Position numbers and translations under genes: made by a program. A DNA stretch of 38,877 nucleotides, taken from assembly GCA_013153515.1 (NCBI GenBank), contig JAADEI010000130.1, forward strand, positions 1 through 38,877, given 5' to 3'. The notes beneath the pieces were generated by a model. That model saw nothing but the letters and a program-made list of their open reading frames with translations. It did no database searches and was not told the DNA's origin. This document shows positions 6,654 to 28,854 of the stretch, one piece after another (positions within the stretch are counted from its first letter, which is position 1; the number at the start of each line of letters is the position of its first letter). The DNA is from Chlorobiota bacterium (GTDB lineage Bacteria > Bacteroidota > Bacteroidia > JAADEI01).

Positions 6654-6684
6654 CAGATTCAAGTTAATGTGAACTATTGGAAAC

Positions 6685-6719
6685 GGGGGCTTGGCTTGGG
6701 CCGGTCCCCCTTCTTTTTT
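6685..6719 (+). terminator. Rho-independent terminator after the T9SS cargo gene
   Basis: The hairpin has an outer GGGGG/CCCCC stem, one mismatch, an inner TTGGC/GCCGG stem with two wobble pairs and a four-base loop, followed by TTCTTTTTTC. It lies between the convergent cargo gene and polA and is oriented for the plus strand. Confidence 0.7.
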
Positions 6720-6748
6720 CTCATTTCTAATTAGAGCATAGAGTAACC

Positions 6749-9538
6749 TCAATGAGCCTCTGCCCATGAGTCGCCGATGCCAACATCCACTTTCAGCGGA
6801 ACTCGTAATTGGACAGCAGTCTCCATTAACTCCTTGAGTTTGGGCACAATGTCTTCTTCGTCTTTGTGTAAATCAAAAATCAACTCATCGTGAACCTGCA
6901 ACAACAGTTTCGTTTTATAGCCTCCTTCTTTCAAGAACTTGTGAATCCTGTTCATTGCGGTTTTGATAATGTCTGCTGCGGACCCTTGGATAGGTGTGTT
7001 TATAGCATTTCGTTCGGCATGCCCCCTCACTGTTGGATTCCTTGACCATATATCAGGCAGGTATCTACGACGTCCCATAATGGTTTCCACGTAGCCGTGT
7101 TCCCTCGCAAAGGCAATAACTTCTTCAATATATTGTTTCACTTTCGGATATGCCTCAAAGTATTTTCTGATTATTTCATTTGCTTCTGTCCGTGAGATTT
7201 TGAGTTGTTCAGCCAAGCCGTGGGCACTAATGCCATAGATGATTCCGAAATTGATCGCCTTAGCCCTCCTCCTCAACTCAGGCGTTATCTCATCTGGTTT
7301 AACATTGAACATTTTCATGGCGGTCTCAGAGTGAATGTCTCTTTCATCAAGGAAAGCCTGAATGAGATTTTCATCTTCGCTCAAACTGGCTATAATCCTT
7401 AGTTCTATCTGTGAATAATCCATAGAGAGAATGTGATAGCCTTCTGAAGCGATGAAAGCCCTTCTAATTTCCCTCCCTCGTTCTGTTCTGACAGGAATGT
7501 TTTGGACATTAGGATTTGAACTGCTCAGCCTTCCAGTTACCGTCCCCGCTTGATTAAAATTTGTGTGCACTCTGCCATTGCGAACATGCTTCAAGAGTCC
7601 TGCAACATAGGTGCTTTTCAACTTGGACAATTCCCGATATTCAAATATCAGGTCAATTATCTCATGCTTTCCCCGCAATTTGTTGAGAATCTTTTCTGAA
7701 GTGGAATAAGCCCCTGTGCTTGTCGGCTTGCCCGGATAAGGCAGTTTCAAGTGTTTGAAAAGAATTTCTCCCAGTTGCTTAGGTGAATTGATATTAAATC
7801 TCGTTTTTGCGACGGAATAAATTTTTTCCTGCAAGTCAAAGAGTTCCTTGCCCCATTTGTCATCCAACTCTAAAAGCCATTTCGTATCAATAGCAATACC
7901 CGTCAGTTCCATCATTGTAAGCACTTCCAGCAATGGCATCTCAACTTCATAGAACAGCCTATCCAGTTTCTTTGTTTGCAATTCATAGATTAGTGGTTGA
8001 CGCAATTGCAGTGTTATGTCTGCATCTTCGGCAGCATAATCCTTGATTTGTTCTGGTGTTAGTTCAGCCATTGACTTTTGCCTTGACCCTTTTCGCCCTA
8101 TTAATGCAGTAATGGAAATAGGGTCATAATTAAGGTAGTGTCGTGCTAAGGCATCCATATTGTGTTTGCCCTCAGGGTCAATGAGCCAGTGTGCTATCAT
8201 TGTATCAAAAAAAGGACCTTTTACTGGAAAGCCGTGCCTGTGCAATACAACAAGGTCATATTTTATGTTTTGACCCACTTTTTCTTTATCGCTCTGCAAT
8301 AATGGCTCTAAAATCTTGTTGAACTCCTCTCTGTCCCTTGAATTGTCTGGATAAGCCACATACCAAGCCCTGCCTTTCCGGGCACATAGCGAAATGCCCA
8401 GAAGCCTTGCCTCATGCGGATTAATAGCGGAAGTCTCGGTGTCTATAGCAAAAACAGGATATTCCATTAATTCATTAATCACTTCTTGAAGATGGCTCGC
8501 ATCCTTAACCAGAAAGTATTCAACATTTTCGGTCTTTATTGTTCTCTTTGCCGTGAAAAGAGAAGGGTCAAAAAGTGTCCTTGATTTAAAAGAAGTAGTA
8601 TCACTTTTTTTTTCCGTGGACTGCTCGGATGATTCTTGCAGTTTGCTAAACAGGGAAGGCGTGGCGGATTCCCCTATCAGTCGTTCTTTAAGGCGTCGGA
8701 ACTCCAGTTCATCAAACAAGCGTGCTATTTCGTCCTTGTGGATTGGACCCCACGACAATGGTATTGAGTCTATCTCAACCTCATCATTTAGCAGAATAAG
8801 TTTTTTTGAAAGCAGTGCCTGTTCCTTATGTCCTTCCAGTTTCTTTCGCCATTTTTCGGGAATCCCATCCAAATTTTCATAAATGTCTTCAATGGTGCCA
8901 TATTGGGAAACCAATTGAACAGCGGTTTTTTTGCCTATTCCCGGAACCCCCGGGATATTATCCACTTTGTCTCCCATCAGTGCAAGCACATCAGGAATTA
9001 AATCTGGCTCAACTCCCCATTCCTCCTTGACTTTCTGTCTGTCCCAAACTTCATATCCTCCCCTGTTAGACGGTCTGTAAAGTTTTACTTTATCATTAAC
9101 AATCTGGGCTAAATCCTTATCGGAAGTAACAACATATACTAAATAGCCCTGTTTGGATAGTTTTTTAGCCAGCGTAGCAATCACGTCATCTGCTTCATAG
9201 CCCTCCACTTGAACAACTGGGATATTCATTGCTTTGAGAATCTGCAAAACGTAGGGAATAGCCACTTTGATTGCTTCCGGTGCTTCGGGACGTGTGGCTT
9301 TGTAGTCCCTGACCATTTTGTGTCTGAATGTTGGTGCTTCGCTCTCAAACACAGCAATTATCAAATCAGGATTCTCCCGGCGAATTAACTCAACCAGAAT
9401 GTTAACAAATCCATATATAGCGGAAGTGTCAAGCCCTTTTTTCGTCCGTAGCGGATTCCTAATAAAGGCATAATATCCACGGAACAGCAGGCTCATAGCA
9501 TCCAACAAAAAAGCCCGTTTAGGTTGTCCGTCCGACAT
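6749..9538 (-). CDS. polA: DNA polymerase I
   Basis: This 929-residue enzyme acts in repair and Okazaki-fragment maturation. It carries all three domains. The 5'-nuclease domain (about 1-300) has FESEAPTFRH, EGYEADDVIATLA, TSDKDLAQ and ALMGDKVDNIPGVPGIGKKTA. The 3'-5' proofreading exonuclease keeps its acidic residues: FAIDTETSA, GQNIKYDLV and YAAEDADITL. The polymerase domain has SSNPNVQNIPVR, motif A MDYSQIELRI, motif B RRRAKAINFGIIYGIS and motif C QVHDELIF. It begins 54-60 bases from the divergent obg start, so the two promoters must be packed in the same short gap. Confidence 0.98.
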   Translation of the reverse strand: MSDGQPKRAFLLDAMSLLFRGYYAFIRNPLRTKKGLDTSAIYGFVNILVELIRRENPDLIIAVFESEAPTFRHKMVRDYKATRPEAPEAIKVAIPYVLQILKAMNIPVVQVEGYEADDVIATLAKKLSKQGYLVYVVTSDKDLAQIVNDKVKLYRPSNRGGYEVWDRQKVKEEWGVEPDLIPDVLALMGDKVDNIPGVPGIGKKTAVQLVSQYGTIEDIYENLDGIPEKWRKKLEGHKEQALLSKKLILLNDEVEIDSIPLSWGPIHKDEIARLFDELEFRRLKERLIGESATPSLFSKLQESSEQSTEKKSDTTSFKSRTLFDPSLFTAKRTIKTENVEYFLVKDASHLQEVINELMEYPVFAIDTETSAINPHEARLLGISLCARKGRAWYVAYPDNSRDREEFNKILEPLLQSDKEKVGQNIKYDLVVLHRHGFPVKGPFFDTMIAHWLIDPEGKHNMDALARHYLNYDPISITALIGRKGSRQKSMAELTPEQIKDYAAEDADITLQLRQPLIYELQTKKLDRLFYEVEMPLLEVLTMMELTGIAIDTKWLLELDDKWGKELFDLQEKIYSVAKTRFNINSPKQLGEILFKHLKLPYPGKPTSTGAYSTSEKILNKLRGKHEIIDLIFEYRELSKLKSTYVAGLLKHVRNGRVHTNFNQAGTVTGRLSSSNPNVQNIPVRTERGREIRRAFIASEGYHILSMDYSQIELRIIASLSEDENLIQAFLDERDIHSETAMKMFNVKPDEITPELRRRAKAINFGIIYGISAHGLAEQLKISRTEANEIIRKYFEAYPKVKQYIEEVIAFAREHGYVETIMGRRRYLPDIWSRNPTVRGHAERNAINTPIQGSAADIIKTAMNRIHKFLKEGGYKTKLLLQVHDELIFDLHKDEEDIVPKLKELMETAVQLRVPLKVDVGIGDSWAEAH

Positions 9539-13217: not shown

Positions 13218-15365
13218 TTATTTTGAACTGTTCAATTGTTCCAACGCCTCTTCAACAGAAGCGACAGGGTTGTGGCACACTCCACTTTCACAAACATAAA
13301 TTTTTAATTCTTCCGAATGTTTGTCTTTGCATAAAGGAATTTGCGTGTCTGGATATGCCACTCCAACAATTGCATTGGGCAAATAATGGCTATTTATTTG
13401 TCTCAAAAATGGTTCTTTGACAGTCAGAACAATCTCTTTAAGTGGGAATGCTAATGGTATGGATGCCGTGAGCCAAAATGTGTAGTCAATGGGATATTGT
13501 GAAGCGGCTTTAATCATTCTGCCTATTACCTGTTCATACACAGTGGCATATTGTGGTTCCAGCATGTAACTATGCATTATCCTGAGATTATATGCCATCA
13601 TACTGTTTGGCGATGGGAAGGGATGGTCATACAGTTCAACCTGTTTGTGATAGGGCTTGTCAGAACCCTTCCTTCCGACAGTAAATAGTCTTCGGGATTG
13701 GTTATAAAACTCATCAATAGCGAAGTGAGTTAATGAATCGGCAAGTAACAAAGCATCTTCCTTTCCTGTGGCAATGTAATAAGAAATGAGTGCGTTAATG
13801 AGCAGTGCTATATCTGATGAAGTTGCATCTCCCTCCACGCCAGTTGGGTAATAAACCTTAAAAATCTTGAATGTGCCTTTCTCTCGGTCAATAAACTCAT
13901 TTGTTAGGAACTCATACAATCTGTGCATTTCAGGGATTTCTATAATAGGGCTTGTCTTGGCTAAATTGCTTAGCAGAAGGCTATTCCAAGCCAGCAGGAT
14001 TTTAGTATCAATCCTTGGTTTCGCCCTTTTTCTGCGATAAATGGTTAGTTTCCTTATGCCTTCCTGTATTTTCTTTTTAACTATCGGTTCTGGAAGACCA
14101 TATTTCTTGCTTAACTCCTCAACTGTTGATTTTATATAAAGGACATTTTTGCCATTTTCCCAGTTGCCCCCTTTTGTTACGCCAAAGTAGTCGGCAAGCA
14201 ACTGTGCATCCTCCCCAAGAACTTGTTCCCATTCCTGCCAAGTCCAGACGTAATACTTTCCTTCCTCGCCTTCTGAGTCAGCGTCAATAGCCGAATAGAA
14301 CCCTCCTGTTTGTCTATCCAGCATCCAATTCCTAAGGAAATCAAGTGTATGAAGCAAATATCTCAAATAAATAGAATCTCCTGTTATCTTATATGCATCG
14401 GCAAGGACGCCTATCAACTGTGCATTGTCATATAGCATTTTCTCAAAGTGTGGTATATGCCAGTGCCTGTCAGTGCTATATCTTGCCAGTCCCCCCTCCA
14501 GATGGTCATAAATCCCCCCTTGCAACATCTTATCAAGGGAATTCAAAGATACCAAAATCAATTCATCGTTTCCTGTCAAAGTGCCATATCTAAGCAGGAA
14601 ATCAAGGACTGGGAACACAGGGAATTTAGGTTGAGACCCGAATCCGCCATGTTTGGAATCATATTGTTTCAAGATGCCTTCTGTTGCCTGTTCAAGCAAA
14701 GGCTTTATGTCTTCTCCCGATGGTTTGAGAATTATGTCCTGTGCTATGAATTCTTCTTCCCGCAGGATCGCCTCTTTTAGTTTCCGTGCCTGTTCTCTTA
14801 GTTCAGACTCTTTGGTCTTCCAAGCGTTGCTAATTGCCTGCAAAACATTCAACCAAGAAGGCATTCCGAACCGTGGCTCTGGCGGGAAATATGTTCCGCC
14901 ATAGAATGGGTCTCCTTCTGGCGTGCAGAACACGTTTAGTGGCCAGCCTCCCCGTCCGCTAAGCATTTGAACAGCCTTCATGTAGTATGCATCCACTTCT
15001 GGATGTTCCTCCCTGTCAACTTTTATGCATACAAAATTTTCGTTCATAAACCGTGCTACGGTAGTGTCCATAAAGGATTCCTCTTCCATCACGTGGCACC
15101 AATGGCAGGAAGAGTATCCTATGCTAATAAGAATCGGTTTGTTTTCCCGCTTTGCCTTCTCAAAGGCTTCTTCCCCCCACGGATACCAATCCACTGGGTT
15201 ATCGGCGTGCTCACGCAGATATAGGCTTTTAGCGTTTGCCAGCCTGTTCAATTGCCTATCTTGTGAATCATTTGTCATCTTACCCTCGCTTGGTTTCTCC
15301 GTAAAACAATGGGAACCTAATAGGATAATTCCCAACAGTAACAAAAAAACTCTATTCTTCGCCAT
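13218..15365 (-). CDS. DUF255/YyaL-like protein with N-terminal thioredoxin domain and export signal
   Basis: This protein is about 715 residues from ATG 15365 ([12 protein letters not shown]). The N-terminal DUF255 thioredoxin-like domain has [11 protein letters not shown], the CHWC redox site (Cys87/Cys90), the following HVMEEESF, and [10 protein letters not shown]. The remaining roughly 500 residues resemble the alpha/alpha-barrel of SPATA20/YyaL proteins ([42 protein letters not shown]). Biochemical function is unknown in the family. Unlike the cytoplasmic members, this one begins with a hydrophobic signal ending GSHC (Cys20), so it may be exported. The His just before the Cys is atypical for a lipobox. 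The start lies 14 bases inside hemD. Confidence 0.88.
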
Positions 15366-16263
15366 GTGCTTTATGCCACTGCTTGAGATATTCATCCAGA
15401 ATCATTGCCATTGAAGTGAACTTTCCAATGGGCACTTTAATATCAACTCTCAATCCCAAATTCTTTGCCTCTTCCTCAGTTCTCTTTCCGAAAGTGGCAA
15501 CCAGAATGTCGCCTTGATTCTGGATAAACTCAGGATAATTAGTTGCTATTGCTTGAACATCTTTGGGCGTGAAAAAGGCTATTATGTCCACATCTTGCGG
15601 TTTAACAGGCAACTCGCAATAGATTGTTCTATACATTGATGCGGGCACAACCTCAATTCCTCGTTTCTTAAAGGCTTCTATTAATGCCTCATTGGGTTTG
15701 TCGGAACAGGGATAAAGCATTGGTTGATGTTCAGCGAACCGTTCCTTGCCCACTTCAGCCATTGATTCCACGTCTCCCGTGCCCCATCCAATCCGTCGTT
15801 TCCTAAAAGGAATATACTTCTGCAAATAATAGGCTATCTGCTCGGTCAGACATAGATATTTTGTTTCGGCAGGCATCGGTTGATTCAACTTCTCGCTAAA
15901 TTGAAAGAAAAGGTCAACGGCAGTTCGGTTAGTGAATATGATTGTTGGATATTCGTTCAGTTTAATTTTCTGTCTGCGAAATTCTTTAAGAGAAAAGGGT
16001 TCTATATTGAGATATGGTTGGAATATGATTTCCACATCATACTTCTTTTCAAGGCTTTTATACGCCGATGCCCGCTCATCGCTCAATGGCAGTAGAATTT
16101 TTTTGATAGGCTTTTTTCGGTCTTCTGGCTTAATGCCTGTCCACAACTCAACATCTTTAATCTCTGATTCCTTATCTTTACCTTGTGGGATAGTGTTCTC
16201 TTTTTTTACCTGCTTTTTGGTTTTTGCCCTTGTAGTCCCTGTTTTCTTCTTGCTTCTTCCCAT
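15352..16263 (-). CDS. hemD: Uroporphyrinogen-III synthase with Lys-rich N-terminal extension
   Basis: HemD closes hydroxymethylbilane to uroporphyrinogen III for heme synthesis. Recognisable parts are [11 protein letters not shown] at the start of the fold, [13 protein letters not shown] in the first lobe, [23 protein letters not shown] and MYRTIY at the hinge, and [14 protein letters not shown] plus the C-terminal [17 protein letters not shown] choose ATG 16263 (MGRSKKK) because AAGGAG sits five bases upstream; the track's 16311 start lies inside DUF4271. This gives 303 residues, roughly 50 more than a typical HemD. The extra part is a Lys-rich, probably disordered N-terminus. It lies between DUF4271 and the DUF255 gene, an arrangement often seen in Bacteroidota for the first two. 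Confidence 0.85.
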
Positions 16264-16279
16264 AAGGCTCCTTGGATTT

Positions 16280-16873
16280 CTAAACATTAAAAGCGAAAAG
16301 GTCAGTAACAATGCTCAGACTCCATATTCCCAACAACGGATAAACTTCCACATTGCAAAGATAGATAAGATAATACAAATGATATTTAATCAGATAGGGC
16401 ACTGACTTAAACAATCCATTTAACCATCTTAATGCCCCGATGCCAAATGCCACATATATAAGCCCTTCCCTGATGGAACCCAGCAGGCTATCCGTTGGCA
16501 CAAGGCTCGGAAACATTCCAGCGAAACCAAGCCATATGATCGCTTGCCACTCCTCAGATAAGTATTTAAGTGGTTCCCGACTATCGCTCAGCCATCTGGA
16601 ATAGAGATGAGAGACGAGGCGATAGGCAAAAACCATTGGGACAGCGAGGGAAACCTCTGGACTATTAGGAAACAAATGCATAAACATGGACATTATTACA
16701 AGCAGAGACCCAATGACCAAGGGCAACACAGTGCCCAATTCAGCATAAGGGATTTCAATTATTTCTCGGATTCCACGGCGAAGCCATCGCCACACTCCCC
16801 GTTCAGCATTATATATCCCAAAAGCAATTAATCCAACGCCTATCCATCCAGTTATTAGCCCTACCTGTTCCAT
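16280..16873 (-). CDS. DUF4271 membrane protein
   Basis: This 197-residue integral membrane protein has about five to six hydrophobic helices. The C-terminal YLIKYHLYYLIYLCNVEVYPLLGIW matches the conserved end of DUF4271 proteins, which are nearly restricted to Bacteroidota and often sit next to hemD, as here. No function is established. The ATG start overlaps the upstream Omp85-like gene by 13 bases, suggesting coupled translation. Confidence 0.78.
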   Translation of the reverse strand: MEQVGLITGWIGVGLIAFGIYNAERGVWRWLRRGIREIIEIPYAELGTVLPLVIGSLLVIMSMFMHLFPNSPEVSLAVPMVFAYRLVSHLYSRWLSDSREPLKYLSEEWQAIIWLGFAGMFPSLVPTDSLLGSIREGLIYVAFGIGALRWLNGLFKSVPYLIKYHLYYLIYLCNVEVYPLLGIWSLSIVTDLFAFNV

Positions 16874-18357
16874 AGCCCGTAACTTATATGAACATAAATT
16901 CTACGCAATAAAGTTGCCTGTGCGGGATATGATGATATTGTCCAGATGAGCGAAATGTATGATTTTTCAAGCAAGAAATGAGTTTCCAAGCCTCCGCTAA
17001 TTACTCCTTTGATTGTTTGTTCTCCAGACAGATAAGTAGGTTGCACAAAAATTCCCGCAACTAAATCTTGCCAGTATTTACGGAAGGAAACGAAAGATGA
17101 GACCCAGTGGACAGCCCTAACCTCGCCATCTGGCATCCCTAAGATTGAACTGGTTCCGCCCACTGGATACGCCTCCTCGTTCGTTAGATTATCCCCGAAC
17201 AATGCCTGACCACGCAATTTAAGGAACAAAGCAGTTGTTTTGCGAACTGGAATAGCGATGGACATTTCGCCTTCCGTGGAATGCAAGAATCCCGTACCTA
17301 ATTCGGTCTCTCTGTTTCCCCCGCCATATACTAATTCCCCGTGATAGCCCCGAAAAGGGAAATATGGATTATCACTGCGATAGAGCCGTATTCTGATTCC
17401 GCCCATGAGTGTAGAGACAGCCTGTATGGTAGTGTCAAAAGCAGGCAATACATAATATCTTTCTATGAATGGATTAACGGTTATGTCGCTTGACCACAAC
17501 AAACCAAATCTATATCTCACTTTGACGAAGGAAGTGTCTTGCCTGTATATAGTTAAGAATCCAGCACTGCCAAGATTACTCACAATGAATGGCACGTCGC
17601 TTTTGAACTCCAGATTTTGTTGCCCGTTAGCCATCCCGTTCCATCGCACATGCACTTCTATCAATCGTTTGAACAGGTTTTTGAAGTCCAGCATAGCGAA
17701 TCCTGTCAGGATGATTCTGCCGTTCGGTTGTTGAGAGAAAGAGAGAGCCCCTTGCACATTAGTCGTAGTGTTTTCAGAAAGCGTCATTCTGACGGCGAAC
17801 CAATTAGCACGACCCCATTGATAGGTTTCTCCACTGAGCGAATCAACCCTCACTTGTGGAAGGGCTTGCAGTCGCCTATTAATAGCCTGCAAATCTCTAT
17901 ACCGAACTGGCTTGCCATATTTAATTCCCAGATAACGTTCCAGAACCTTTCTGTTGACGGGCAGTGGTCTGTAGTGCCTGATAGTGTCGTAGATAAACAG
18001 GTTTCCCGTGTCAACAGTCCAAATAGTGTTGATAAGAGTGTCTTTTGCAGTTGGCGTGATATAAATGGAATCCAGTTTTAGTTTAGCGTGCACATAGCCA
18101 CTATTCCCCCACGACTCAAGATATGCAACCAATTGTTTTCTTAGGCATTCCCAAGTTTTGCATTCCCCTGTTAGTTTTTGTTCCATTCGGTCTGGTTCCA
18201 CGATGGTTGGTTGGGCGAATATCCATCCGTCGGGCAATCTCCTTTGTAGCGATTGGTCTGTAATAATCCTGTTTTCTGGCGGGATAGTTACTTGTTGTGC
18301 TACTGTCCAGTGGCATATCAACCAACTAATCAGCATTGCTTTCCCTCGCCAGTTCAT
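16861..18357 (-). CDS. Omp85/TamA-like outer-membrane protein
   Basis: This 498-residue protein has a signal peptide ending near TVAQQ. Its N-terminal half contains a POTRA-like stretch: YLESWGNSGYVHAKLKLDSIYI, then VDTGNLFIYDTIRHY and DLQAINRRLQALPQV. The C-terminal half has alternating amphipathic strands typical of a 16-stranded barrel. The segment YPVGGTSSILGMPDGEVRA resembles the Omp85 lid-loop region (GG...LRGY). It is shorter than BamA and nearer TamA in length. By family it inserts or assembles outer-membrane proteins. A tamB-like gene begins only one gene away in the opposite direction, which supports a TamA-like role. The gene overlaps its upstream glycosyltransferase by 32 bases. 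Confidence 0.75.
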   Translation of the reverse strand: MNWRGKAMLISWLICHWTVAQQVTIPPENRIITDQSLQRRLPDGWIFAQPTIVEPDRMEQKLTGECKTWECLRKQLVAYLESWGNSGYVHAKLKLDSIYITPTAKDTLINTIWTVDTGNLFIYDTIRHYRPLPVNRKVLERYLGIKYGKPVRYRDLQAINRRLQALPQVRVDSLSGETYQWGRANWFAVRMTLSENTTTNVQGALSFSQQPNGRIILTGFAMLDFKNLFKRLIEVHVRWNGMANGQQNLEFKSDVPFIVSNLGSAGFLTIYRQDTSFVKVRYRFGLLWSSDITVNPFIERYYVLPAFDTTIQAVSTLMGGIRIRLYRSDNPYFPFRGYHGELVYGGGNRETELGTGFLHSTEGEMSIAIPVRKTTALFLKLRGQALFGDNLTNEEAYPVGGTSSILGMPDGEVRAVHWVSSFVSFRKYWQDLVAGIFVQPTYLSGEQTIKGVISGGLETHFLLEKSYISLIWTISSYPAQATLLRRIYVHISYGLWNR

Positions 18358-19072
18358 ATTTCAAAAATGTTTCCATTGATTGCATAAGATGGACGCACAG
18401 TCCGTCATAGCCATCTAAAAATCCCAGATTGAACACATAGCCTTTTAGGAAAGTCCATGTAGCAGACCCAATCACTTTGAGTTTAGACGGTTTGTTTTTA
18501 GTTTGACTTCCCGCAATGGCATATCTCCTTATTTTTTCAAGATGGTCATAAATGCTATCCACTGTGTAGTGCCTTATTTCTCCTTGGTTAATTTGTAATG
18601 TTTTTCCGTTTATGGTTAGTTGTTCGTGGACTGGTCTGTTGTCCCACGTGCATAGTTCCTTGTTGCAAAATCTAACTTTATGTATTGGTTTCCATACCCC
18701 AAATCTAAGTCTTCTGCCACGGTAGTAGTTGACCAGTTTGAACGAAGCGGATGCGTATGAATCATCCCAGATTTCCAACAGTGTGTTTAGGGCGTTGTCA
18801 GTGAACACTTCATCGGCGTCTGGGAACAGAACGTATTTATGTTTTGCCTCTGAGAATGCTATGTTTCGGGCGTGTCCGTAGCCCTGCCATTGGATATTGA
18901 TTATTCTGGCGTTGAATTGTCGTGCTATGTTTAGCGTGTTGTCTTGACTGCCACTGTCCACGATAACTATTTCGTCAACATAATTTTTAATAGCGTTAAG
19001 GACTTTGGATAGATGGCGTCCCGAATTAAAAGTTATAATTGCTCCAGAGATTTGAGTTTTGTGTATTGGCAT
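18326..19072 (-). CDS. Family 2 glycosyltransferase, LPS-core WaaE/KdtX-like
   Basis: The product is 248 residues from ATG 19072, chosen over the track's 19153 because GGAAGGAG lies a few bases upstream and MPIHKTQISGAIITF begins the GT-A fold. It contains VDSGSQDNT (nucleotide-binding Asp39), WQGYGHARNIAF and the metal-binding FPDADEVF (Asp85-Asp87). HYTVDSIYDHLEKIRRYA near the end is typical of WaaE-like enzymes that decorate the lipopolysaccharide inner core. Sugar specificity cannot be read. It is the first gene of the minus-strand run that continues to the acetyltransferase and diverges from the tamB-like gene. Confidence 0.87.
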   Translation of the reverse strand: MPIHKTQISGAIITFNSGRHLSKVLNAIKNYVDEIVIVDSGSQDNTLNIARQFNARIINIQWQGYGHARNIAFSEAKHKYVLFPDADEVFTDNALNTLLEIWDDSYASASFKLVNYYRGRRLRFGVWKPIHKVRFCNKELCTWDNRPVHEQLTINGKTLQINQGEIRHYTVDSIYDHLEKIRRYAIAGSQTKNKPSKLKVIGSATWTFLKGYVFNLGFLDGYDGLCVHLMQSMETFLKYELARESNAD

Positions 19073-19126
19073 GCCTTTCTCCTTCCGTAATTTGGTAGTA
19101 AAATTAAACGTTATAGTCAAGGAATT

Positions 19127-22100
19127 ATGGATAAGGGACAGGTAGAAGGGCAAGAGGGACGGGTTAAAAAGCCTTTATGGAAAAAATTGCTTATAGGCTT
19201 GGCTATTACTGTTGTTGTCCTCCTTTTGTCTCTTTTGCCTTTGTATTGGTTTGGGATGAAGCCACTCATCAACTATACCCTTTCGTTTCTGGAAACTCAG
19301 ATGAGTGAAGCGGGCTATGGATTCAGTCATTCTGGCGTCTCGTGGTATCCTCCCAGAACAATTGTTCTCCATAATGTTTTGATTACGACCGACGAAGAAG
19401 GGACTGACACACTTGCATTTGTGGAAGAGGCGGGCATTTCGTGGTCGCTAAGAAGCATCGTAATAGGGAATCCGAAACTCTATGGCATCTGGCTTAAAAA
19501 CGCTTATGTTAAATATGTTGACACGACTACTGTTCAGGAAGACACGACCGATTCATCTCTCGGTTCGGACACGTCAACGCAAGCCCTTAGCCTGCCAAAG
19601 TTCAGGATATCGCTCATAAGCCTTGAAAACGTTCGGTTTGATTACTTAACCTCTTCGCAGAAGGTTTCCATAGGGCTTGAAGAGTTGGAAATAGAAGACG
19701 TTGAAGCGATTGATGACAACATAAGCATTGAAGACATTTTGCTTAACAATACTGAAATTCTGATTTCCACTCTTGAAGTTGACACAGTCCCTTCGGACAC
19801 TCTGTTCTCTCGGGAAATGCTTGAAATCCCATTGGATATATACGTTGGCAAGTTTTCTGGGAATTCAATAGCCATTTTGCAAAACTCCATATCAGACACA
19901 TTCAAAACCACAGACACAATCCTGATTGAAAACCTTAATCTTGCTACCGTTCACTACACAGACTCGTTCAAATCACTGGTATTATTAGGGAAATTAAGCG
20001 ACCCAGAGCCTTTGTCGGTAACATTGTCTTTGTCCCTTTGGGACACTGTCCTGCGAATTAACGGTTTGAATTTTGAGCATTCCGACGTTTCGGGTTCTGT
20101 ATATGGCACAATTCCTGTTCCTGCATATTTGACCAATTCAACTCTTCCAGAGGGCGAACTGTTTGCAACATTTTCCAGTCGGGAACCCAGGTCCCAAGGC
20201 GTATTCCATGCCTTGCACTACGACAACAACTGGACTCTCTTTCTGAATGCTAAGTCTATGGCTTCCGACAGAGCCAAACTGCATGCCGAACTATCTTTTG
20301 ATGACCAATGGGAACGAACTTTGAGAATCAAACATCTCTCGGGACAAATTGCCCTGCAAGACTTAAACAAATATATGGAAATTTTCTATGGCACGGACAC
20401 TCTATTGCCCGATTCTTCATATATAATAGCGGACATTGAAGGGCGTGGCTATATTCAAGACACTATATTTGTAAATCTCAACATAACGGGTTTCCCTGTT
20501 ACCACGACGACCCGACTTCGTGGGTTCGCTACAGACTCGCTATCCACTATGATTGTTTCGGAAGGCTTTGCAGACTTAACGCATTGGACGGACACGGCAA
20601 CCTTTGTGCAATGGGACATTCTGGCAGAAGTGAACAGACTTTTAACAGACAAGCCTTTCTTGGATGCCGAAATAAACATTCCCTATGTTAAATATGAGCC
20701 TTATGAATTGAAAGATTTGTTTGTGCATTTCCACGGCGATGAGACGAAGGCGTCGATAGAGGTTAATTCCGATGATTCTCACTTGCAGATAAAGAATTTT
20801 ACTATTCTTGCGTCTTCTGGAAGGGAAACCAGAGTGTATGCCAACGGATTGGTTCCGAGGGTAGACTTGGCGTATTGGTTCCTTATGGATACTCTCTTTC
20901 TTTTGACCGACCTCAACTTTGAAGGTTCTTTGTTTCAAAAGGAAGAACATTCACATGCCACGGCAACCTTCTCAAACTTCTCTCTGTCCTATGGTCGGTC
21001 AACATCCACGTTCTCTGAGTTTTTCCTTGCTTATCACGGCGAAGGGAACAAGCATTCTGTTCTGGGCGATGCTCCTTGGATGAGCCTTAATGCCGAATTC
21101 ACTGAGCCAGAGTATGAAATTTCTCCGACGCTAATTGACTCCCTCCTTCTTGGCGGAACACTGCTCCTTCCTGAATCCTTCCTGCTTGTTCAGGTTGATT
21201 CCCTGCCTGTGGTTGGACAGGATTTATTGGGGATTGACCTGCCCAAGGGACTACTTTTTAAACTCAGAACAGACCAACGTTCATATAGTGCCTTTTTGGA
21301 TGTTCAGACAATTAAGGTAAAAGACGCAGACATAACAATACAAGACCTGTTTGTTACTGGTAATCAGGACACTCAAATCGTTTGGCAATTATACACGGGA
21401 CACATAACTTATCAGAACATTCTTGACCTGACCTATATTCAGACCAAATGGAAGGCGTTGAAGGGAATGGGCAAACTGATTTCAGTGGTCAAACCATCGG
21501 GATATCCACAGGTCTATTTTGCGGGTTCCGTAAAACGGAATAAAGATTTTTATGGCTTGGGAATTGATTCGTTCAGTTTCTGGTATGCCGATTCATGGTG
21601 GTTCGCCACTCCTTCCTACTGCGTTAATAATCCAGAGAATTCCAACTTTTGTGTTCCGCCGATAAAACTCAAATCAGAGGATGGGAAGCGGTATATAGAG
21701 ATAAACAATCAAGCCCAGTGGTGGTCTGTCCAAGCACATAATTTCCCACTGAGACCGATTCTTTTAGTTGCCCAAGCCTATTCTGGATATGAGTTAGATG
21801 CTACGCTTAACGCCGACGTCCGCTTTAATCAAGAAACCTATGAATTTGATTTTAACCCGCTTGAACTGGAAGACATATATCTTGATTCCTTTGCCCTTGG
21901 CACGTGGCAGTTCACAGGCAGTATGAAGAAAGACATTATCTCCACGACGTGGAAGATTAACGGTGAAAAGACTGCCTCTGTTTCTGGAAATGTGAATAAG
22001 ACAATGAGTTTGAACATCCATCATTTGCCCCTTTCCCTCGTGCAACCCTTCACGGTAGGAATAATAGATTCTCTGGATGGCTACCTAAAAACAGAGAATC

Positions 22101-23656
22101 CGCTTGTGTTTGCGTGGAAAGGTTATCCATCGCTCAAAGGTGCTATTTTGCTTAGGGATGGCAACCTGCATGTTGATTTCACTGGCGTGAGTTACAAAAC
22201 CGTGGGAACATTGAATTGCTTTGACGACAGTGTTGACCTAACTCTTGTGTTGAACGACAGGGAAGATGGCTTGGGCACAATGAAAGGGTTTGTGCTACTC
22301 AATCCAATTGATAATCCTCCATACAACCTGAACATAACCACAAACAAACTCAAGGCGATTAATACTGGTCCTGAACATAATCCTGATTACTATGGGAACG
22401 TAACCATCAAGGGCAAGGTGACCCTTCAGGGCGATGCAACAATTTTTAGAATCCTTATTAAGGAAGCCGAACCAATCCGACCTTCTGAATTCTATATGCC
22501 AATTTATTCTGGTCCATATGTTGACGACGAATCGGACTTCATAGTTTTTGTTGACAGGGACGAAATGCTAAGTGAACAAGGCGAATCTGACGATGAGGAA
22601 GAGAGAATTGAGAAATCCTCTGAATCGGACTTCGCTTTAGAATTTTATAGCAAATTGAATATGAACGATGGGCTCACGGTGGTCATTCCCTTTGACCCGC
22701 CAGTTGGCGACATTCTTGAGGTGGTTGGCGAAGGTCCTATCCAATTGCACTATACCCCAACAGGTGAATTCACGATGATGGGCGAATATGTTTTGACGGG
22801 CGGGTCATACACTTTTAATTTCAAAAACCTGCTAATAAGACGCTTTAACATTTCAGAAGGGTCTATTCGGTGGCTTGGAAGTCCCTATGACGGTGTTCTG
22901 GACATCCATGCTATTTACACTGTCAGAACCCCCGCTACCAACCTCCTGCTCTATACTGTCGGGACTGCCGATTCCTCCTTGGCAATTAAGTATGTAACTG
23001 CTCAGGTTCACATGTTTATGAAAGGAACCCTATCAAAGCCCGAACTCACTTTCAAAATAGACGTATTGGAAGCGGATAACATCCCCGAAATAAGGACAAT
23101 TATTAGGTTAATAAATGCCGACCCTTTGGAACGGGACTATCAAGCCTTCAGCCTGTTGGCAACCAACCAGTTTGCTCCGCCTCGGCAGGGTGGTGGTGGG
23201 ACTGTTAGTGGCGGTGCCCTCTATCATACGGTCAGTGAATTCATATCGCAACAACTAACCAGTCTTGCACAGGAAATGCTTGGTGCCCAAGACCTCCAAC
23301 TCCATCTTGGCTATCAAAGTGGGACAGGGTTGGAAGGAACCACTGCTAAGGAATTTCAAGTGGCGATAAACAAAGCATTTATGAACAAACGGCTCATAGT
23401 GGACGTGACTGGGAATGTTCTTGTTGGACAGGACGATACCCGCAGTGGTGGTCCCCTCTCTGGAAGCATGCAAATAGAATATCTTTTAACGAAGGATGGC
23501 AGGTGGCGTTGGCGGGTCTATAGTCAAGCATATCAGGACTTTGGTGCGGAACGGAACAAGGTTAGGACAGGGATGGGTATCCGATTCATTAAGCATTTTG
23601 ACTCTTGGGAAGAAATAATTCCTTTGACTCAGGACACGACCGAATCAAACGATTAG
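19127..23656 (+). CDS. TamB-like translocation/assembly protein (DUF490)
   Basis: This very long protein (1509 residues) has one N-terminal transmembrane helix (LLIGLAITVVVLLLSLLP, about residues 22-39). A long series of beta-rich, AsmA-like repeats follows, of the kind expected to form a hydrophobic taco-shaped groove across the periplasm. The C-terminal TamB/DUF490 domain is recognisable: TGGSYTFNFKNLLIRRFNISEGSIRWLG, MKGTLSKPELTF, DPLERDYQAFSLLATNQF and YHTVSEFISQQL. TamB proteins connect the inner and outer membranes and act in phospholipid transport and barrel assembly, often with TamA. The ATG at 19127 is 54 bases from the divergent glycosyltransferase start. Its TAG stop overlaps the stop of the convergent next gene. 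Confidence 0.9.
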   Translation: MDKGQVEGQEGRVKKPLWKKLLIGLAITVVVLLLSLLPLYWFGMKPLINYTLSFLETQMSEAGYGFSHSGVSWYPPRTIVLHNVLITTDEEGTDTLAFVEEAGISWSLRSIVIGNPKLYGIWLKNAYVKYVDTTTVQEDTTDSSLGSDTSTQALSLPKFRISLISLENVRFDYLTSSQKVSIGLEELEIEDVEAIDDNISIEDILLNNTEILISTLEVDTVPSDTLFSREMLEIPLDIYVGKFSGNSIAILQNSISDTFKTTDTILIENLNLATVHYTDSFKSLVLLGKLSDPEPLSVTLSLSLWDTVLRINGLNFEHSDVSGSVYGTIPVPAYLTNSTLPEGELFATFSSREPRSQGVFHALHYDNNWTLFLNAKSMASDRAKLHAELSFDDQWERTLRIKHLSGQIALQDLNKYMEIFYGTDTLLPDSSYIIADIEGRGYIQDTIFVNLNITGFPVTTTTRLRGFATDSLSTMIVSEGFADLTHWTDTATFVQWDILAEVNRLLTDKPFLDAEINIPYVKYEPYELKDLFVHFHGDETKASIEVNSDDSHLQIKNFTILASSGRETRVYANGLVPRVDLAYWFLMDTLFLLTDLNFEGSLFQKEEHSHATATFSNFSLSYGRSTSTFSEFFLAYHGEGNKHSVLGDAPWMSLNAEFTEPEYEISPTLIDSLLLGGTLLLPESFLLVQVDSLPVVGQDLLGIDLPKGLLFKLRTDQRSYSAFLDVQTIKVKDADITIQDLFVTGNQDTQIVWQLYTGHITYQNILDLTYIQTKWKALKGMGKLISVVKPSGYPQVYFAGSVKRNKDFYGLGIDSFSFWYADSWWFATPSYCVNNPENSNFCVPPIKLKSEDGKRYIEINNQAQWWSVQAHNFPLRPILLVAQAYSGYELDATLNADVRFNQETYEFDFNPLELEDIYLDSFALGTWQFTGSMKKDIISTTWKINGEKTASVSGNVNKTMSLNIHHLPLSLVQPFTVGIIDSLDGYLKTENPLVFAWKGYPSLKGAILLRDGNLHVDFTGVSYKTVGTLNCFDDSVDLTLVLNDREDGLGTMKGFVLLNPIDNPPYNLNITTNKLKAINTGPEHNPDYYGNVTIKGKVTLQGDATIFRILIKEAEPIRPSEFYMPIYSGPYVDDESDFIVFVDRDEMLSEQGESDDEEERIEKSSESDFALEFYSKLNMNDGLTVVIPFDPPVGDILEVVGEGPIQLHYTPTGEFTMMGEYVLTGGSYTFNFKNLLIRRFNISEGSIRWLGSPYDGVLDIHAIYTVRTPATNLLLYTVGTADSSLAIKYVTAQVHMFMKGTLSKPELTFKIDVLEADNIPEIRTIIRLINADPLERDYQAFSLLATNQFAPPRQGGGGTVSGGALYHTVSEFISQQLTSLAQEMLGAQDLQLHLGYQSGTGLEGTTAKEFQVAINKAFMNKRLIVDVTGNVLVGQDDTRSGGPLSGSMQIEYLLTKDGRWRWRVYSQAYQDFGAERNKVRTGMGIRFIKHFDSWEEIIPLTQDTTESND

Positions 23657-24333
23657 AGCATGAAGTAAACAGCCCCGACAAATCCCAATGGCACATAGGA
23701 AGGTGGATTGGTAATGGTTTGCCCGCTATACCGCCATTTTGTATGATATGTAACCGTAGCCCCCGCTTTAAATCCCCACATTGATTGGTCAGAACCCCAC
23801 AAGCCAAGATTTAGACCTAAGAAGATTGCCTGATTTGTTAAATTAAAACTTGCGAAGTTGTTAGTTGTGAGAAGGGTTGAAGTGAAGGTGTTAGGCACAG
23901 TTGCGGGTGGATTGTGGATATTTACCACTACATTATAAAATTGCCACTGACCATCAATAGCCATTCCAAATTTCTCTTTAATAATAAAGAAATATCCGCC
24001 TCCGAAAGCCCAGAGAACCCCCTGAGCATTAACTTTGCTTTCCGTGTTGACAGGTGCCCAAACGCCGTAGGAACCAACAAGTATGTAGAACTTGCCTAAA
24101 TATCCGACTATTTCCGTGCCAGCAGACATGTGTATAAACGGCAGGCGATTGGATACGCCAACAGAAGATAACGCTTGATTTATTTGTTTTGTCTTAAACT
24201 GCGTAATGCCTATATTAAAGTGAATCCCTCTGCCCCAAACTCCTTCTTTAATAGAATTTTCTTGTGCGTGACCAGAGCCCAAAGTCATTATTATCATGGC
24301 AGAAACGAACCCGATTCTCTTTAAACCTTGCAT
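23653..24333 (-). CDS. Predicted small outer-membrane beta-barrel protein
   Basis: This is a 226-residue protein from ATG 24333 (MQGLKRIGF); the track's 24381 start adds an unlikely leader. A signal peptide (VSAMIIMTLGSGHA) is followed by alternating hydrophobic and aromatic strands rich in Gly (FYILVGSYGVWAPV, WAFGGGYFFI, FLGLNLGLWG). It ends in GFVGAVYFML, the usual strand-like end of a barrel. No family was recognised. Its TAA stop overlaps the tamB-like TAG, so the genes are tail to tail. A TAGTATTTG about 20 bases upstream, with TTG 22 bases further, is a possible promoter with one extra base in the -7 box. Confidence 0.6.
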   Translation of the reverse strand: MQGLKRIGFVSAMIIMTLGSGHAQENSIKEGVWGRGIHFNIGITQFKTKQINQALSSVGVSNRLPFIHMSAGTEIVGYLGKFYILVGSYGVWAPVNTESKVNAQGVLWAFGGGYFFIIKEKFGMAIDGQWQFYNVVVNIHNPPATVPNTFTSTLLTTNNFASFNLTNQAIFLGLNLGLWGSDQSMWGFKAGATVTYHTKWRYSGQTITNPPSYVPLGFVGAVYFML

Positions 24334-24434
24334 TGCCTTTTTGTGAATACAAACAAATACTACGATACAGTTTGGTTCCAATAATTATAATTTAGCCTAA
24401 TGTGTTGTGTATGTCGTCTTAAACACTTCAGTGC

Positions 24435-25835
24435 TCACTTAGTGATAGCGATTTTTATGTTTATTGATTCTTCTCTTCCTGTTATCGTTACAACATAAAC
24501 TCCTGCAGGCAGGCTCAACAGGTCATACATTCCATTGCCCAACTGGACGGGAACGAAGGTTCTCCCCTTACTGTCAGTGATGGAAACAGCCTCGTGGTCT
24601 CCTTCAATAACCATAACATGATGCACTATGGACACTTTGAACCGACTTGTCAATGACCCTTCAATTCCCGTAACGCTTGCATAGAATTGGTCTCGTCGGT
24701 AGTTTTTCCTCCATTCTCCAGAGGCATCGTCCCAATTGAGTATGTGGAATCGGACTTCTCTGTCATAAGAATCGTAAGTGAATTCTTTCAATTCAACGTC
24801 TTTCCATTTGCTTTGGACGTTGTCCCAAGAGAACCTGTGTTCATAGAGCGGTTTCCCAGAGTTAGTGAAGCCATATAGAACCCTGCTTGTGTTTTGCCAA
24901 GTGGAAGATGTTGCGTCCCAAATCTGACTAAGCAGAGAAGAGAGGTTTCCAGACGTGTAGGAATACAATTCCCGTAAATTGTTTTCCCATTGGGAAGTTC
25001 CCACATTCCAAGTTTCCCACAGTTTAGTGTCAACAGTATTATTGGGATTAAGCGTTACTGAATACCTCTGGCTTGGTCTCCAACTTCCTCCATCCCATTG
25101 ATATTTAATTTGCTCTATTAAAACTCCATTGGCATTAAAGGAATAGGTTTCTCGCCTAATGTTCTCATAGGCAGAAAGAGTTGTGTTCCATCGTTTGTCT
25201 ATCCTTTCAATCATATTCCCATCAGGGTCATAGGAATATAGTTCTTTTCTGTCAGGACGCCAACTGGACGTCATCATGTCCCACAAGAAGAACTCAGTTG
25301 CATCCCTCAGTGCAGATGCAATATACGTCATGATTTTTCTGGATGAATTAACCCACTGGCTTGTGAGCGTGTCCCAAACCTGATATACTTCCTCAGTTAG
25401 GCTATCAACTGAATTGTAGGCATAAGTTCTTCTGGTTACAGGAACCCAACGTTGTTGAGTCCATCGCTCTGATTTAGTTTCTGTTAGCAATCCCTGTGTG
25501 TTATACGTCCTAATTGTTCGCCAAGAGTTTTGCCACGACCCGCCAACCCAAACTTGTTCAAAGTATTCAATTAATTCGCCGTTGGAATAAGTGTATTGAA
25601 TTTTCCTTTGATTATTCCAAGTGGTGCCATTCCACATTTGAACAGTGTATCCAGTAATGTTTCCATCGCTATCATAAGAGTAATCTCTCAATTTTGAATA
25701 ATACTCCCATTGGTTCAATGTGCTATTAACAGTGTATGAAATCACTGAATCCAGTTGAGTGGACACAGTTTGTGCAGTGGCAACAATACTACAAATTGCA
25801 AGCAACGTTCCCATTAAACTCTTCAAGCCATTCAT
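24435..25835 (-). CDS. Secreted T9SS protein with about twelve W/Y-rich 31-residue repeats (paralogue 1)
   Basis: This is a 466-residue protein with a signal peptide (residues 1-21, ending VATAQ) and a short lead TQLDSVISY. Then come about twelve tandem units of 28-32 residues from Trp43 to about residue 390. The consensus is roughly W-x-N-x-x-R-x-x-Y-x-Y-x(3)-G-x-L-x-E-x(4)-Q-x-W. The tail (KVSIVHHVMVIEG, LPAGVYVVTITG, IKIAITK) is a T9SS type A sorting domain. The repeats recall YD/RHS-like beta structure, but no toxin or core domain is present. It is probably a surface or released protein of unknown function. A paralogue lies 1.6 kb away in the same orientation. Confidence 0.75.
   Translation of the reverse strand: MNGLKSLMGTLLAICSIVATAQTVSTQLDSVISYTVNSTLNQWEYYSKLRDYSYDSDGNITGYTVQMWNGTTWNNQRKIQYTYSNGELIEYFEQVWVGGSWQNSWRTIRTYNTQGLLTETKSERWTQQRWVPVTRRTYAYNSVDSLTEEVYQVWDTLTSQWVNSSRKIMTYIASALRDATEFFLWDMMTSSWRPDRKELYSYDPDGNMIERIDKRWNTTLSAYENIRRETYSFNANGVLIEQIKYQWDGGSWRPSQRYSVTLNPNNTVDTKLWETWNVGTSQWENNLRELYSYTSGNLSSLLSQIWDATSSTWQNTSRVLYGFTNSGKPLYEHRFSWDNVQSKWKDVELKEFTYDSYDREVRFHILNWDDASGEWRKNYRRDQFYASVTGIEGSLTSRFKVSIVHHVMVIEGDHEAVSITDSKGRTFVPVQLGNGMYDLLSLPAGVYVVTITGREESINIKIAITK
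24666..25712 (-). repeat. Protein-coding tandem repeats (about 12 units of about 93 bases)
   Basis: Each unit encodes about 31 residues, beginning with a W-x-N segment and ending with a Q-x-W segment. Units are diverged at DNA level, with no two identical, so the array is old rather than recently expanded. Confidence 0.7.
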
Positions 25836-26059
25836 CTTTCCTTTATTTTATAAGGCTAAACAAACGTTGATTATATCGTATATGACAAACCAACGTTTCT
25901 CTAACCTTTGGTTTTTTGATAATGTAAAGATACAGAATTTTTGATATAAAGCAAAAAATTGATATTAACTCTGACTCATTAGTTTGGATTCAAATAGATA
26001 AGGCTACTATTATAATAAGTGCACATCAAGTATATTTACATCCATAAAAATTTTGAAAT

Positions 26060-26836
26060 ATGTCGGCTATTATTGATAAAGCAAACACTCTGTGGTGGTA
26101 TCTGTCCCGCCCACATTATTCAGTGCAGTTAATTCAATTGTTCAGACGATTTTTAAACAGGGAAAAAGAGCGGACACGGTTTGAAGCGACGCAGTGGTGC
26201 CAACAGGTGGCAATTCCAATGGAAGAAGTCTTACGCAAGTTGGGAATAGATAAAATTGAATACCCATGGGAAGTGTATCCTGACTACTGGCGTGAAGCGG
26301 AACGGCGTGCTAAACAGGTGCCTGTAGTGATGGGTGGTGCAGGTGCAGTAGAGTTTATATTCACGGCAACTCGGGCGTTCAAGCCCACACGATTGGTGGA
26401 AACGGGTGTTGCTTACGGGTGGTCAACCCTCGCCATGCTTCTGGGAACCTTAGAGAGAGAGTCGGCACGTGTGATTAGCACGGATATGCCCTATCCTAAG
26501 ATGGGTAATGAGCCATACGTGGGTTATGTTATCCCTGAAGACCTGCGTGAACGATGGATCCTCATCCGAAAACCAGATATTCTGGCAGTTCCAAAGGCAA
26601 TAAAACACTTTGGCGGGACGATAGATTTCGCCCATTATGACAGCGACAAGTCCTACACTGGACGCATGTTCACATACCCTCGGTTGTGGAAAGCCCTCCG
26701 CAACGACGGAATACTCATCAGCGACGACATTCAGGACAACATCGCCTTTAAAGAGTTTGCCCAACAGACAGGTGTTGAGCCTCTCGTGTTTGAATACAAA
26801 GGCAAATATGTGGGCGTGCTTAGGAAAGAACGCTAA
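26060..26836 (+). CDS. Class I SAM-dependent methyltransferase
   Basis: This 258-residue protein has a SAM-binding motif I of the form LVETGVAYGWST (residues 112-123). An acidic end of the second strand follows (VISTDMPYP). The motif FAHYDSDKSYTGRM lies before a post-motif GILISDDIQDN. This resembles Methyltransf_24-type enzymes found in cell-surface polysaccharide and natural-product loci. The acceptor is unknown. Upstream is a 224-base gap with a TATATTTA (26031-26038, one mismatch to TAnnTTTG). Four bases downstream of its stop begins the lipoprotein gene, so the two are likely co-transcribed. It is surrounded on both sides by the minus-strand repeat paralogues. Confidence 0.82.
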   Translation: MSAIIDKANTLWWYLSRPHYSVQLIQLFRRFLNREKERTRFEATQWCQQVAIPMEEVLRKLGIDKIEYPWEVYPDYWREAERRAKQVPVVMGGAGAVEFIFTATRAFKPTRLVETGVAYGWSTLAMLLGTLERESARVISTDMPYPKMGNEPYVGYVIPEDLRERWILIRKPDILAVPKAIKHFGGTIDFAHYDSDKSYTGRMFTYPRLWKALRNDGILISDDIQDNIAFKEFAQQTGVEPLVFEYKGKYVGVLRKER

Positions 26837-26840
26837 TATT

Positions 26841-27422
26841 ATGCGGGCGGTAGCACTCCTGTTGGTCTTCCTTCTAAGTTGCAAAACAAAGCATTATGTT
26901 TCCACAGGAAAAGCCGACAAGCCTGTGGCTTCAAGCCTCCATAATAATCTGGCATCAGGCAGTGCCAGTGCGAGTTTCGGATATGGCGGATTTCCGACAA
27001 GAAACAACTATCCCACAACAGCATCTGCAAAAGCATCCCTCCAACATGAATCTTCCCGTTATATTCCTAACATGCGAACTACCGAAAGCAACTCGCTCAT
27101 TGCCGAAACCCAAAAATTCACAAGCCCAGTTGACACTCCTCCCACACAAAACGCTCATCAAGACACGCTTTACAAAGCACAAAATGAAACTTCCCAACAA
27201 ACTGAAATTTTTAGCGACTACCGTTGCGGAATGATCCAATTAATCTTTGTGATAGGCTTGATTATGCTACTTCTTGGAAGCCTCTTTGCTTACTTGTTCT
27301 GGATTTCCAACGCCTTGGCACTAAAAATAATCTTCGGATTCATTGGCGGGACATTACTTCTGTTCGGTTTGCTTATAGTAATAATACACTTGTTGAGTTT
27401 TCTTATCTCACAAACCTCTTGA
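26841..27422 (+). CDS. Lipoprotein with two C-terminal transmembrane helices, function unknown
   Basis: The track frame opens at 26637 inside the methyltransferase, but the true start is ATG 26841: MRAVALLLVFLLSC is a lipoprotein signal with Cys14 at the lipobox. The product is 193 residues. The middle, about residues 20-125, is Ser/Thr/Asn/Gln-rich and low in complexity, probably disordered. Two adjacent hydrophobic helices follow (MIQLIFVIGLIMLLLGSLF and IIFGFIGGTLLLFGLLIVII). A lipidated N-terminus combined with C-terminal membrane helices is unusual and would place the linker in the periplasm. No family was recognised. Its end overlaps the convergent repeat protein by 20 bases. Confidence 0.65.
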   Translation: MRAVALLLVFLLSCKTKHYVSTGKADKPVASSLHNNLASGSASASFGYGGFPTRNNYPTTASAKASLQHESSRYIPNMRTTESNSLIAETQKFTSPVDTPPTQNAHQDTLYKAQNETSQQTEIFSDYRCGMIQLIFVIGLIMLLLGSLFAYLFWISNALALKIIFGFIGGTLLLFGLLIVIIHLLSFLISQTS

Positions 27423-28854
27423 CCAGCAACGGTTTTGAACTGGTCAGTGTGTTGATGGTAAGGACATACATTCCTGAAGGCAGGTTGGATATGTTGAGTT
27501 GAACCATTGGTTGGTTCTGGCATTCAGTAATTAGTTGTTGTCCTGTCGTGGAATGGATGGAAATGCACATTGGTTCGGTCAGTTGGTCATTGGCGACTAC
27601 TGAAATAAAGTCTTGTGAAATGAGGACGTTCACTGTTTCTGTCGGGTCGGGTAGATAGGAATGATTGGGCTGAGGCAGAGAGTAAAACAATTGATTTCGG
27701 GCATTTTTCTTCCATTTATATTCTGTTGTTGACCAAGTGAACTCTTGGTAATCTGAGATGAGTGTGTCGCCGATGTATTCAATGATTGTGCGTCTTTGGT
27801 TTTCCCATTGGTTCGTAGATGTTTCCCACTGCATTGAAATTTCATAGATTGGATTGTTTGCAGAATTGTATTGTGTTAATTTCAATGTGTTGTTTTGCCA
27901 TTGTCCAGAGGTTGGGTTCCATCTTTGCGACAGGTAATAGATATTGTTGCCGTTAGGGTCGTAGTTGTAAAAATACTTATAATATGTTTTCCATGTGTTT
28001 GATGATGTTTCCCACAATTCTTCATAACGTCGAATTAAGAGGTCTTCGCTGTCATATTCATAAAGGATTCTGGAATAGAAATCCCAAGTGGAAGTGGATG
28101 TGTTCCACGTTTGTTCAATCTGTGCCCGTTGTTTTCCAGTAATTGTGTATGAATATAAAGTTCGTTTGCTGTTTATCCATGCCGAAACAACCGAATTCCA
28201 AGTTTGCCTAACATTTTCTACAAGCAGAGTATCATTAGCATAAGTGTAGAGTATTCTACTAACATTCTTCCATGTGGATGTTGTGGCGTCCCATGTTTGG
28301 TAGACATACTCTGTCATGCGATGCAATGTGTTATAATAATAAATATGTTTAGTAAAGTTTTCCCAAGTTCCTGTGGTTATGTTCCATACCTGATATATCA
28401 TTTCTTGTGAATTGCCTGTATATGTCCACTGGTATCTATAGACATTCTCCCATTGTTGCGTGGTTGTGTTCCAATCTTGGCGAATTCGTTCAATAATTCT
28501 CCCTGTTGTAGAGGAATAGCGATAGTGAATCCTATAAGAAGGATTCCACATATTTGCAGATTTATCCCAAGTCTCCTGTAAGTGTTCGGTTATCTTGCCT
28601 TCGTTGTTATAAGATTGCAATGTACGAGCACTCAACTCCCACAAGCCCGAATATGAATAATAGTATGTCTCGGCAGGAAGCGAATCAAAGACTTTACGGA
28701 CATATACTGTTTTATAAGAAAATTCCCATAGAGACCCATCTGTGCTACCCTGATAACTAACAATGGAATCTAAATATGGATTCACTTGCCCTACAGCAAT
28801 TTGTAATAGCATTAGAATTGGCGAAGAACCTTTTAATAAGGCACGCTTCCGCAT
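27403..28854 (-). CDS. Secreted T9SS protein with about twelve W/Y-rich 31-residue repeats (paralogue 2)
   Basis: This 483-residue protein is a paralogue of the one ending at 24435. A signal peptide (ILMLLQIAVGQ) is followed by YLDSIVSY, which parallels QLDSVISY in the other copy. Repeats then start at Trp43, the same residue number in both. About twelve units run to residue 396. The last 87 residues form a T9SS sorting domain (CISIHSTTGQQLI, NLPSGMYVLTINT, LLVKRFVR). Typical units contain TWKNVSRILYTYAND and TWDFYSRILYEYDSE. Function is unknown; a surface binding or filament role would be inference. No promoter with a full -7 consensus was seen immediately upstream. Confidence 0.75.
   Translation of the reverse strand: MRKRALLKGSSPILMLLQIAVGQVNPYLDSIVSYQGSTDGSLWEFSYKTVYVRKVFDSLPAETYYYSYSGLWELSARTLQSYNNEGKITEHLQETWDKSANMWNPSYRIHYRYSSTTGRIIERIRQDWNTTTQQWENVYRYQWTYTGNSQEMIYQVWNITTGTWENFTKHIYYYNTLHRMTEYVYQTWDATTSTWKNVSRILYTYANDTLLVENVRQTWNSVVSAWINSKRTLYSYTITGKQRAQIEQTWNTSTSTWDFYSRILYEYDSEDLLIRRYEELWETSSNTWKTYYKYFYNYDPNGNNIYYLSQRWNPTSGQWQNNTLKLTQYNSANNPIYEISMQWETSTNQWENQRRTIIEYIGDTLISDYQEFTWSTTEYKWKKNARNQLFYSLPQPNHSYLPDPTETVNVLISQDFISVVANDQLTEPMCISIHSTTGQQLITECQNQPMVQLNISNLPSGMYVLTINTLTSSKPLLVKRFVR
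27667..28731 (-). repeat. Protein-coding tandem repeats (about 12 units of about 93 bases)
   Basis: This is the same repeat type as in the paralogue at 24666-25712: W-x-N near the start of a unit and Q-x-W at its end, with a Y-x-Y pair between. Units differ throughout in DNA, so the two genes diverged long ago. Confidence 0.7.

Follow-up and report, generated by a model that had tools for sequence, protein, structure and literature searches.

Genes at the locus

The DNA analysed here, referred to as the window, comprises 38,877 nucleotides from a Chlorobiota bacterium (assembly GCA_013153515.1, contig JAADEI010000130.1, positions 1-38,877 of the forward strand), an uncultured member of the Bacteroidota placed by GTDB in the lineage Bacteria; Bacteroidota; Bacteroidia; JAADEI01. 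Two minus-strand genes, designated gene A (24435..25835, 466 aa) and gene B (27403..28854, 483 aa), encode proteins of the same organization, consisting of a signal peptide, a lead strand, 12 predicted β-hairpin units and a T9SS type A sorting domain. This annotation is based on the open reading frames, profile matches to DUF3836 and TIGR04183, and the 24 strands of the AlphaFold2 models. In A, the repeat domain, formed by the lead strand and the 12 units, spans 24639..25760 (residues 26 to ~399; predicted strands 26-387) and the T9SS C-terminal domain 24435..24614 (approximately residues 408-466). In B, the corresponding regions are 27640..28776 (residues 27 to ~405; predicted strands 27-392) and 27403..27612 (approximately residues 415-483). 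As the preliminary description had noted, the two proteins share the lead strand and the C-terminal domain, and in each the array's first tryptophan is residue 43.

Between A and B, on the opposite, plus strand, lie a class I SAM methyltransferase (PF13578; 26060..26836) and a lipoprotein (26841..27422) with the lipobox LLSC and two C-terminal hydrophobic stretches. The most likely lipoprotein start is at 26841 (MRAVALLLVFLLSC), 4 bp past the methyltransferase stop codon, and the two genes are likely co-transcribed. The convergent 3' ends of the lipoprotein gene and gene B overlap by exactly 20 bp (27403..27422), in agreement with the overlap first described.

Family assignment and export signals

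Both proteins belong to DUF3836 (PF12930), with scores of 39.6 bits for A and 59.6 bits for B against a Pfam cut-off of 25, and the solved DUF3836 structures (3MSW, 4R03 and 4R8O) were also matched by sequence. All 18 aligned relatives carry the DUF3836 match and 16 of them Por_Secre_tail. Across the class, DUF3836 was matched in 26 of 198 genomes. The full-profile members found are single-domain frames of 132-217 aa, from which A and B differ in combining 12 units with a T9SS sorting domain.

A has a marginal sorting domain and B a good one: TIGR04183 (NCBIfam) scored 23.7 and 29.5 bits, respectively, against a cut-off of 23, and PF18962 scored 15.3 bits in A, below its cut-off of 27, and 27.3 bits in B, above it. 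The same genome encodes T9SS machinery, as indicated by an SprA_N match of 503 bits in a 2375-aa frame, and contains 40 sorting domains above cut-off. A and B thus resemble T9SS type A cargo in their C-terminal domain and in the presence of SprA, but their passenger is a repeat sheet without a recognised catalytic domain.

Repeat units of A and B

When cut at the tryptophan of each turn, A and B each comprise 12 units with a modal length of 31 aa and a range of 24-32, and a unit hidden Markov model likewise recovered 12 domains in each. The earlier count of about twelve 31-residue units is therefore accurate, apart from the spread in length. The mean BLOSUM score of unit pairs was 32.9, compared with 8.2 +/- 7.2 for shuffled units, and the repeat is therefore genuine. 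At the DNA level, Tandem Repeats Finder detected no array in either gene, and aligned units were 37-42% identical, against 26% after shuffling, which upholds the proposal that the units have diverged in DNA.

Units at equal positions in A and B do not correspond preferentially to one another. In permutation tests that treated units as exchangeable except for fixed end units, the diagonal mean was no better than permuted orders for all 12 units (p 0.23) or for the inner 10 (p 0.66), and the register was equally indistinct with the caps held fixed (p 0.63) or with one skip permitted on each side (p 0.53).

Predicted fold

AlphaFold2 models of A and B, built on 18-row alignments, reached a mean pLDDT of 88.4 for each protein. 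Ten-residue blocks of the repeat region mostly scored 90-98, with minima of 78 in A and 72 in B, and values below 50 occurred only in the signal peptide and in the linker preceding the sorting domain. DSSP assigned 24 strands ahead of the sorting domain in both models. The first hairpin pairs the lead LDS(V/I) strand with the W43 strand and is followed by eleven more. Both proteins are accordingly predicted to form 12 successive hairpins in one 24-strand antiparallel meander, followed by the sorting domain. One hairpin turn carries the conserved W..W pair and the next the YD/NG motif.

Foldseek retrieved DUF3836 structures at E-values of 1.3e-7 to 2.2e-4, with TM-scores normalized by target of 0.73/0.70 for 3msw, 0.78/0.68 for 4r8o and 0.60/0.63 for 4r03, so that the hairpin unit of A and B matches this family both by sequence and by fold. 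Among BFVD viral models, MORN-repeat proteins of giant viruses recurred as fold matches. MORN-repeat proteins are built of serial hairpins and share this feature with A and B; however, the unit of A and B is longer and has the W..W turn, TM-scores were low, and no MORN family was matched in Pfam.

The preliminary description had proposed a defined fold such as a propeller or solenoid. A defined, regular fold is borne out by the confidently predicted meander, but in the form of a DUF3836/Rhs-type sheet. A β-propeller, with four-stranded blades in a closed ring, was rejected on the two-strand units in a 24-strand series, and propellers appeared only as weaker Foldseek matches with low TM-scores. 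The meander is not a classical solenoid either. Also rejected were the β-flower folds (PMC10584680), which comprise 8-12 strands and often enclose a helix, unlike A and B.

Unit number and register across relatives

Five other long members of the genus, one on another contig of this genome and two in each of two other species, contain 13 hairpins each. Their 13-hairpin register is kept across the five paralogues and three species (leave-one-out p <= 0.0004). Allowing for one skipped unit, B also follows this register (p 0.007) and would seem to be a 12-hairpin form derived from it, whereas the fit of A was not significant (p 0.10). In the third species, tandem 13-hairpin genes (L130:339-1958 and 2096-3745, minus strand) are 56% identical and retain the full unit register; judged from this alignment, they are a gene duplication without unit change.

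Beyond this branch, unit number varies. Complete members across the class have approximately 6-14 units, with counts of distant members taken by profile and possibly off by one, and relatives as a whole, at unrelated loci, have about 3-14. The lower extreme is a 234-aa three-hairpin gene of the sister species (L128:5421-6122, plus strand), which carries a signal peptide and a comparable C-terminal tail of its own; it matches the last three hairpins of a 13-hairpin protein at 44.7% over 188 aa. This gene, whose longer match lies on another contig, is by all appearances a naturally shortened version. Among relatives, mean unit identity within a protein lay between 0.26 and 0.65 and the best pairs reached 0.92; the mean for A and B was 0.31 by the same measure. 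The near-identical units therefore point to recent expansion in some relatives, but not in A or B. Several relatives in one genome (G027; L013, L023 and L028) have near-identical 29-aa units, and one relative from G027 contains ambiguous bases within its repeats, which may reflect strain variation or a problem in assembly.

These comparisons divide the earlier proposal of a fixed unit number without expansion and contraction. Constancy holds within the main genus branch, with 13 hairpins in five paralogues, but A and B have 12, one relative has three and the family as a whole varies widely. Likewise, the diverged units of A and B speak against recent expansion in these two genes, while the near-identical units of several relatives speak for it elsewhere.

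One might suppose that selection acts on hairpin number in the genus, a sheet of set length being needed, with A and B as derived forms one hairpin shorter. The register shared by the 13-hairpin paralogues, the fit of B to it and the presence of exactly 24 strands in both A and B are consistent with this idea. It has to be set against the non-significant fit of A, the three-hairpin member and the range of unit numbers in the wider family, some with near-identical units, and we regard it as a tentative possibility on the unlikely side.

Comparison with Rhs/YD shells

The top PDB matches of both models were Rhs effectors, Tc BC complexes and teneurins, at E-values down to 8e-14 for A and 3e-12 for B. 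With the shells of these proteins (T6SS Rhs effectors, Tc BC complexes and teneurins), A and B share serial antiparallel hairpins in one meander. They differ in having few hairpins and neither Rhs core nor cargo, and the whole-chain TM-scores normalized by query were 0.07-0.37, so that the established likeness is that of the unit. By sequence, RHS_repeat matched 7 of the 18 relatives; A reached only 12.3 bits with TIGR01643 (cut-off 15.8), and PF05593 was absent from A and B.

An evolutionary reading of this likeness is that Rhs/YD shells have open, uncapped relatives in the long T9SS-exported DUF3836 proteins, whose hairpin number (13, or 12 here) is set in this genus because sheet length matters. 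We consider this improbable, but if it were true, long DUF3836 proteins would show how hairpin-repeat sheets became closed cages. Another reading, in which A and B are small Rhs/YD toxin relatives whose meander curls into a cargo cage, would account for the shells being the best PDB folds and for the RHS_repeat matches among relatives. It is very improbable, given that the repeats run directly into the sorting domain with no cargo or toxin domain, that no RHS-associated core or toxin family in NCBIfam matched at E-values up to 1, and that only 12 hairpins and low global TM-scores were obtained.

Genomic neighbourhood

Two segments of the window, 13938-24367 and 26022-27384, are collinear with the sister species (L033/L131), with ~82% DNA identity. 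This species retains the methyltransferase (89% identical) and the lipoprotein (63%), with neither repeat gene beside them; as the relatives come from incomplete draft genomes, this absence applies to these sites. At the gene A site, the stretch 24368..26021 measures 1654 bp in the window and is replaced by 136 bp in the sister (L131 10497-10632), where the site is contiguous within the contig, consistent with presence or absence of the whole gene. When the flanks of gene A were compared, neither a clear target-site duplication nor terminal repeats emerged. On the other side, homology ends just inside the lipoprotein end, and other secreted-protein genes occupy the place of B. No remnants of A or B were detected in the sister contig, where tblastn gave only matches with E-values of at least 0.05, the best of them in the sorting domain.

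In the third species, the methyltransferase has neighbours different from those in the window, and the methyltransferase, a lipoprotein relative (37%) and the repeat genes lie on different contigs from one another. The other repeat genes of the genus have unrelated neighbours. Relatives of the methyltransferase occur in several phyla, including Pelagibacteraceae, Sphingomonadales, cyanobacteria and Chryseobacterium, and no sequence relative was present in the PDB. Confident relatives of the lipoprotein were confined to this genus among the 21 genomes searched. The preliminary description was correct that the repeat genes flank the methyltransferase-lipoprotein pair, but this arrangement is not a conserved block: the sister keeps the pair without the repeat genes, the third species has differing neighbours, and the repeat genes occur at unrelated loci. 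The position of A and B around the pair appears incidental, and the two intervening genes are bystanders.

Presence or absence between sister species, together with diverged units, could also be read as the mark of decaying, non-functional copies. Both frames are, however, open and complete with signal peptide, lead and C-terminal caps and sorting domain, and both proteins are confidently predicted to fold, which leaves decay with only a slight chance. Adjacency and the 20-bp overlap suggest a functional module of all four genes, with the repeat proteins modified or surface-anchored by the methyltransferase-lipoprotein pair. This reading is largely refuted by the sister and third-species loci, the broad distribution of the methyltransferase and the opposite strand of the pair, and we give it hardly any credence.

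Proposed role and significance

We favour, with a probability of roughly 0.55, the interpretation that A and B belong to a DUF3836-type T9SS-exported family that presents a hairpin sheet as a binding or adhesion surface and evolves by duplication, movement and loss of whole genes. Judging from the signal peptide, the sorting domain and SprA, the proteins would most likely be carried across the outer membrane by the T9SS and then either stay anchored to the cell surface or be released from it. The remaining chain is predicted to fold as 12 hairpins into a continuous 24-strand antiparallel meander. Since the sheet is rich in aromatic residues and no catalytic, toxin or other recognised domain is present, this long surface is most likely the working part, and A and B probably serve in binding or adhesion. 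This role is proposed by analogy, because the literature searched contained no functional work on DUF3836, nor any paper naming or treating the family or its PDB entries. Family genes within the genus duplicate, move and are lost as wholes. The best reading of A and B is thus as ordinary members of a known, uncharacterised T9SS family.

These results place widespread, unstudied exported proteins of the Bacteroidota in a family and supply a predicted fold for them. They also provide a case in which whole-gene gain and loss, with a unit register long kept, can be separated from unit expansion, and in which neighbouring genes are not to be taken as a module.

Two further observations concern surrounding genes. 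A 1509-aa gene is a single frame in the window (19127-23656) but two adjacent frames in the sister species (L033:2523-7064, plus strand), through either a frameshift or a mistake in the assembly. This genome's third repeat gene (L125:4877-6406) lies between two genes (L125:2708-4378 and 6478-9297, minus strand) whose long products carry NVGIG(T/A) motifs near their start and look like tail-fibre-type surface proteins.
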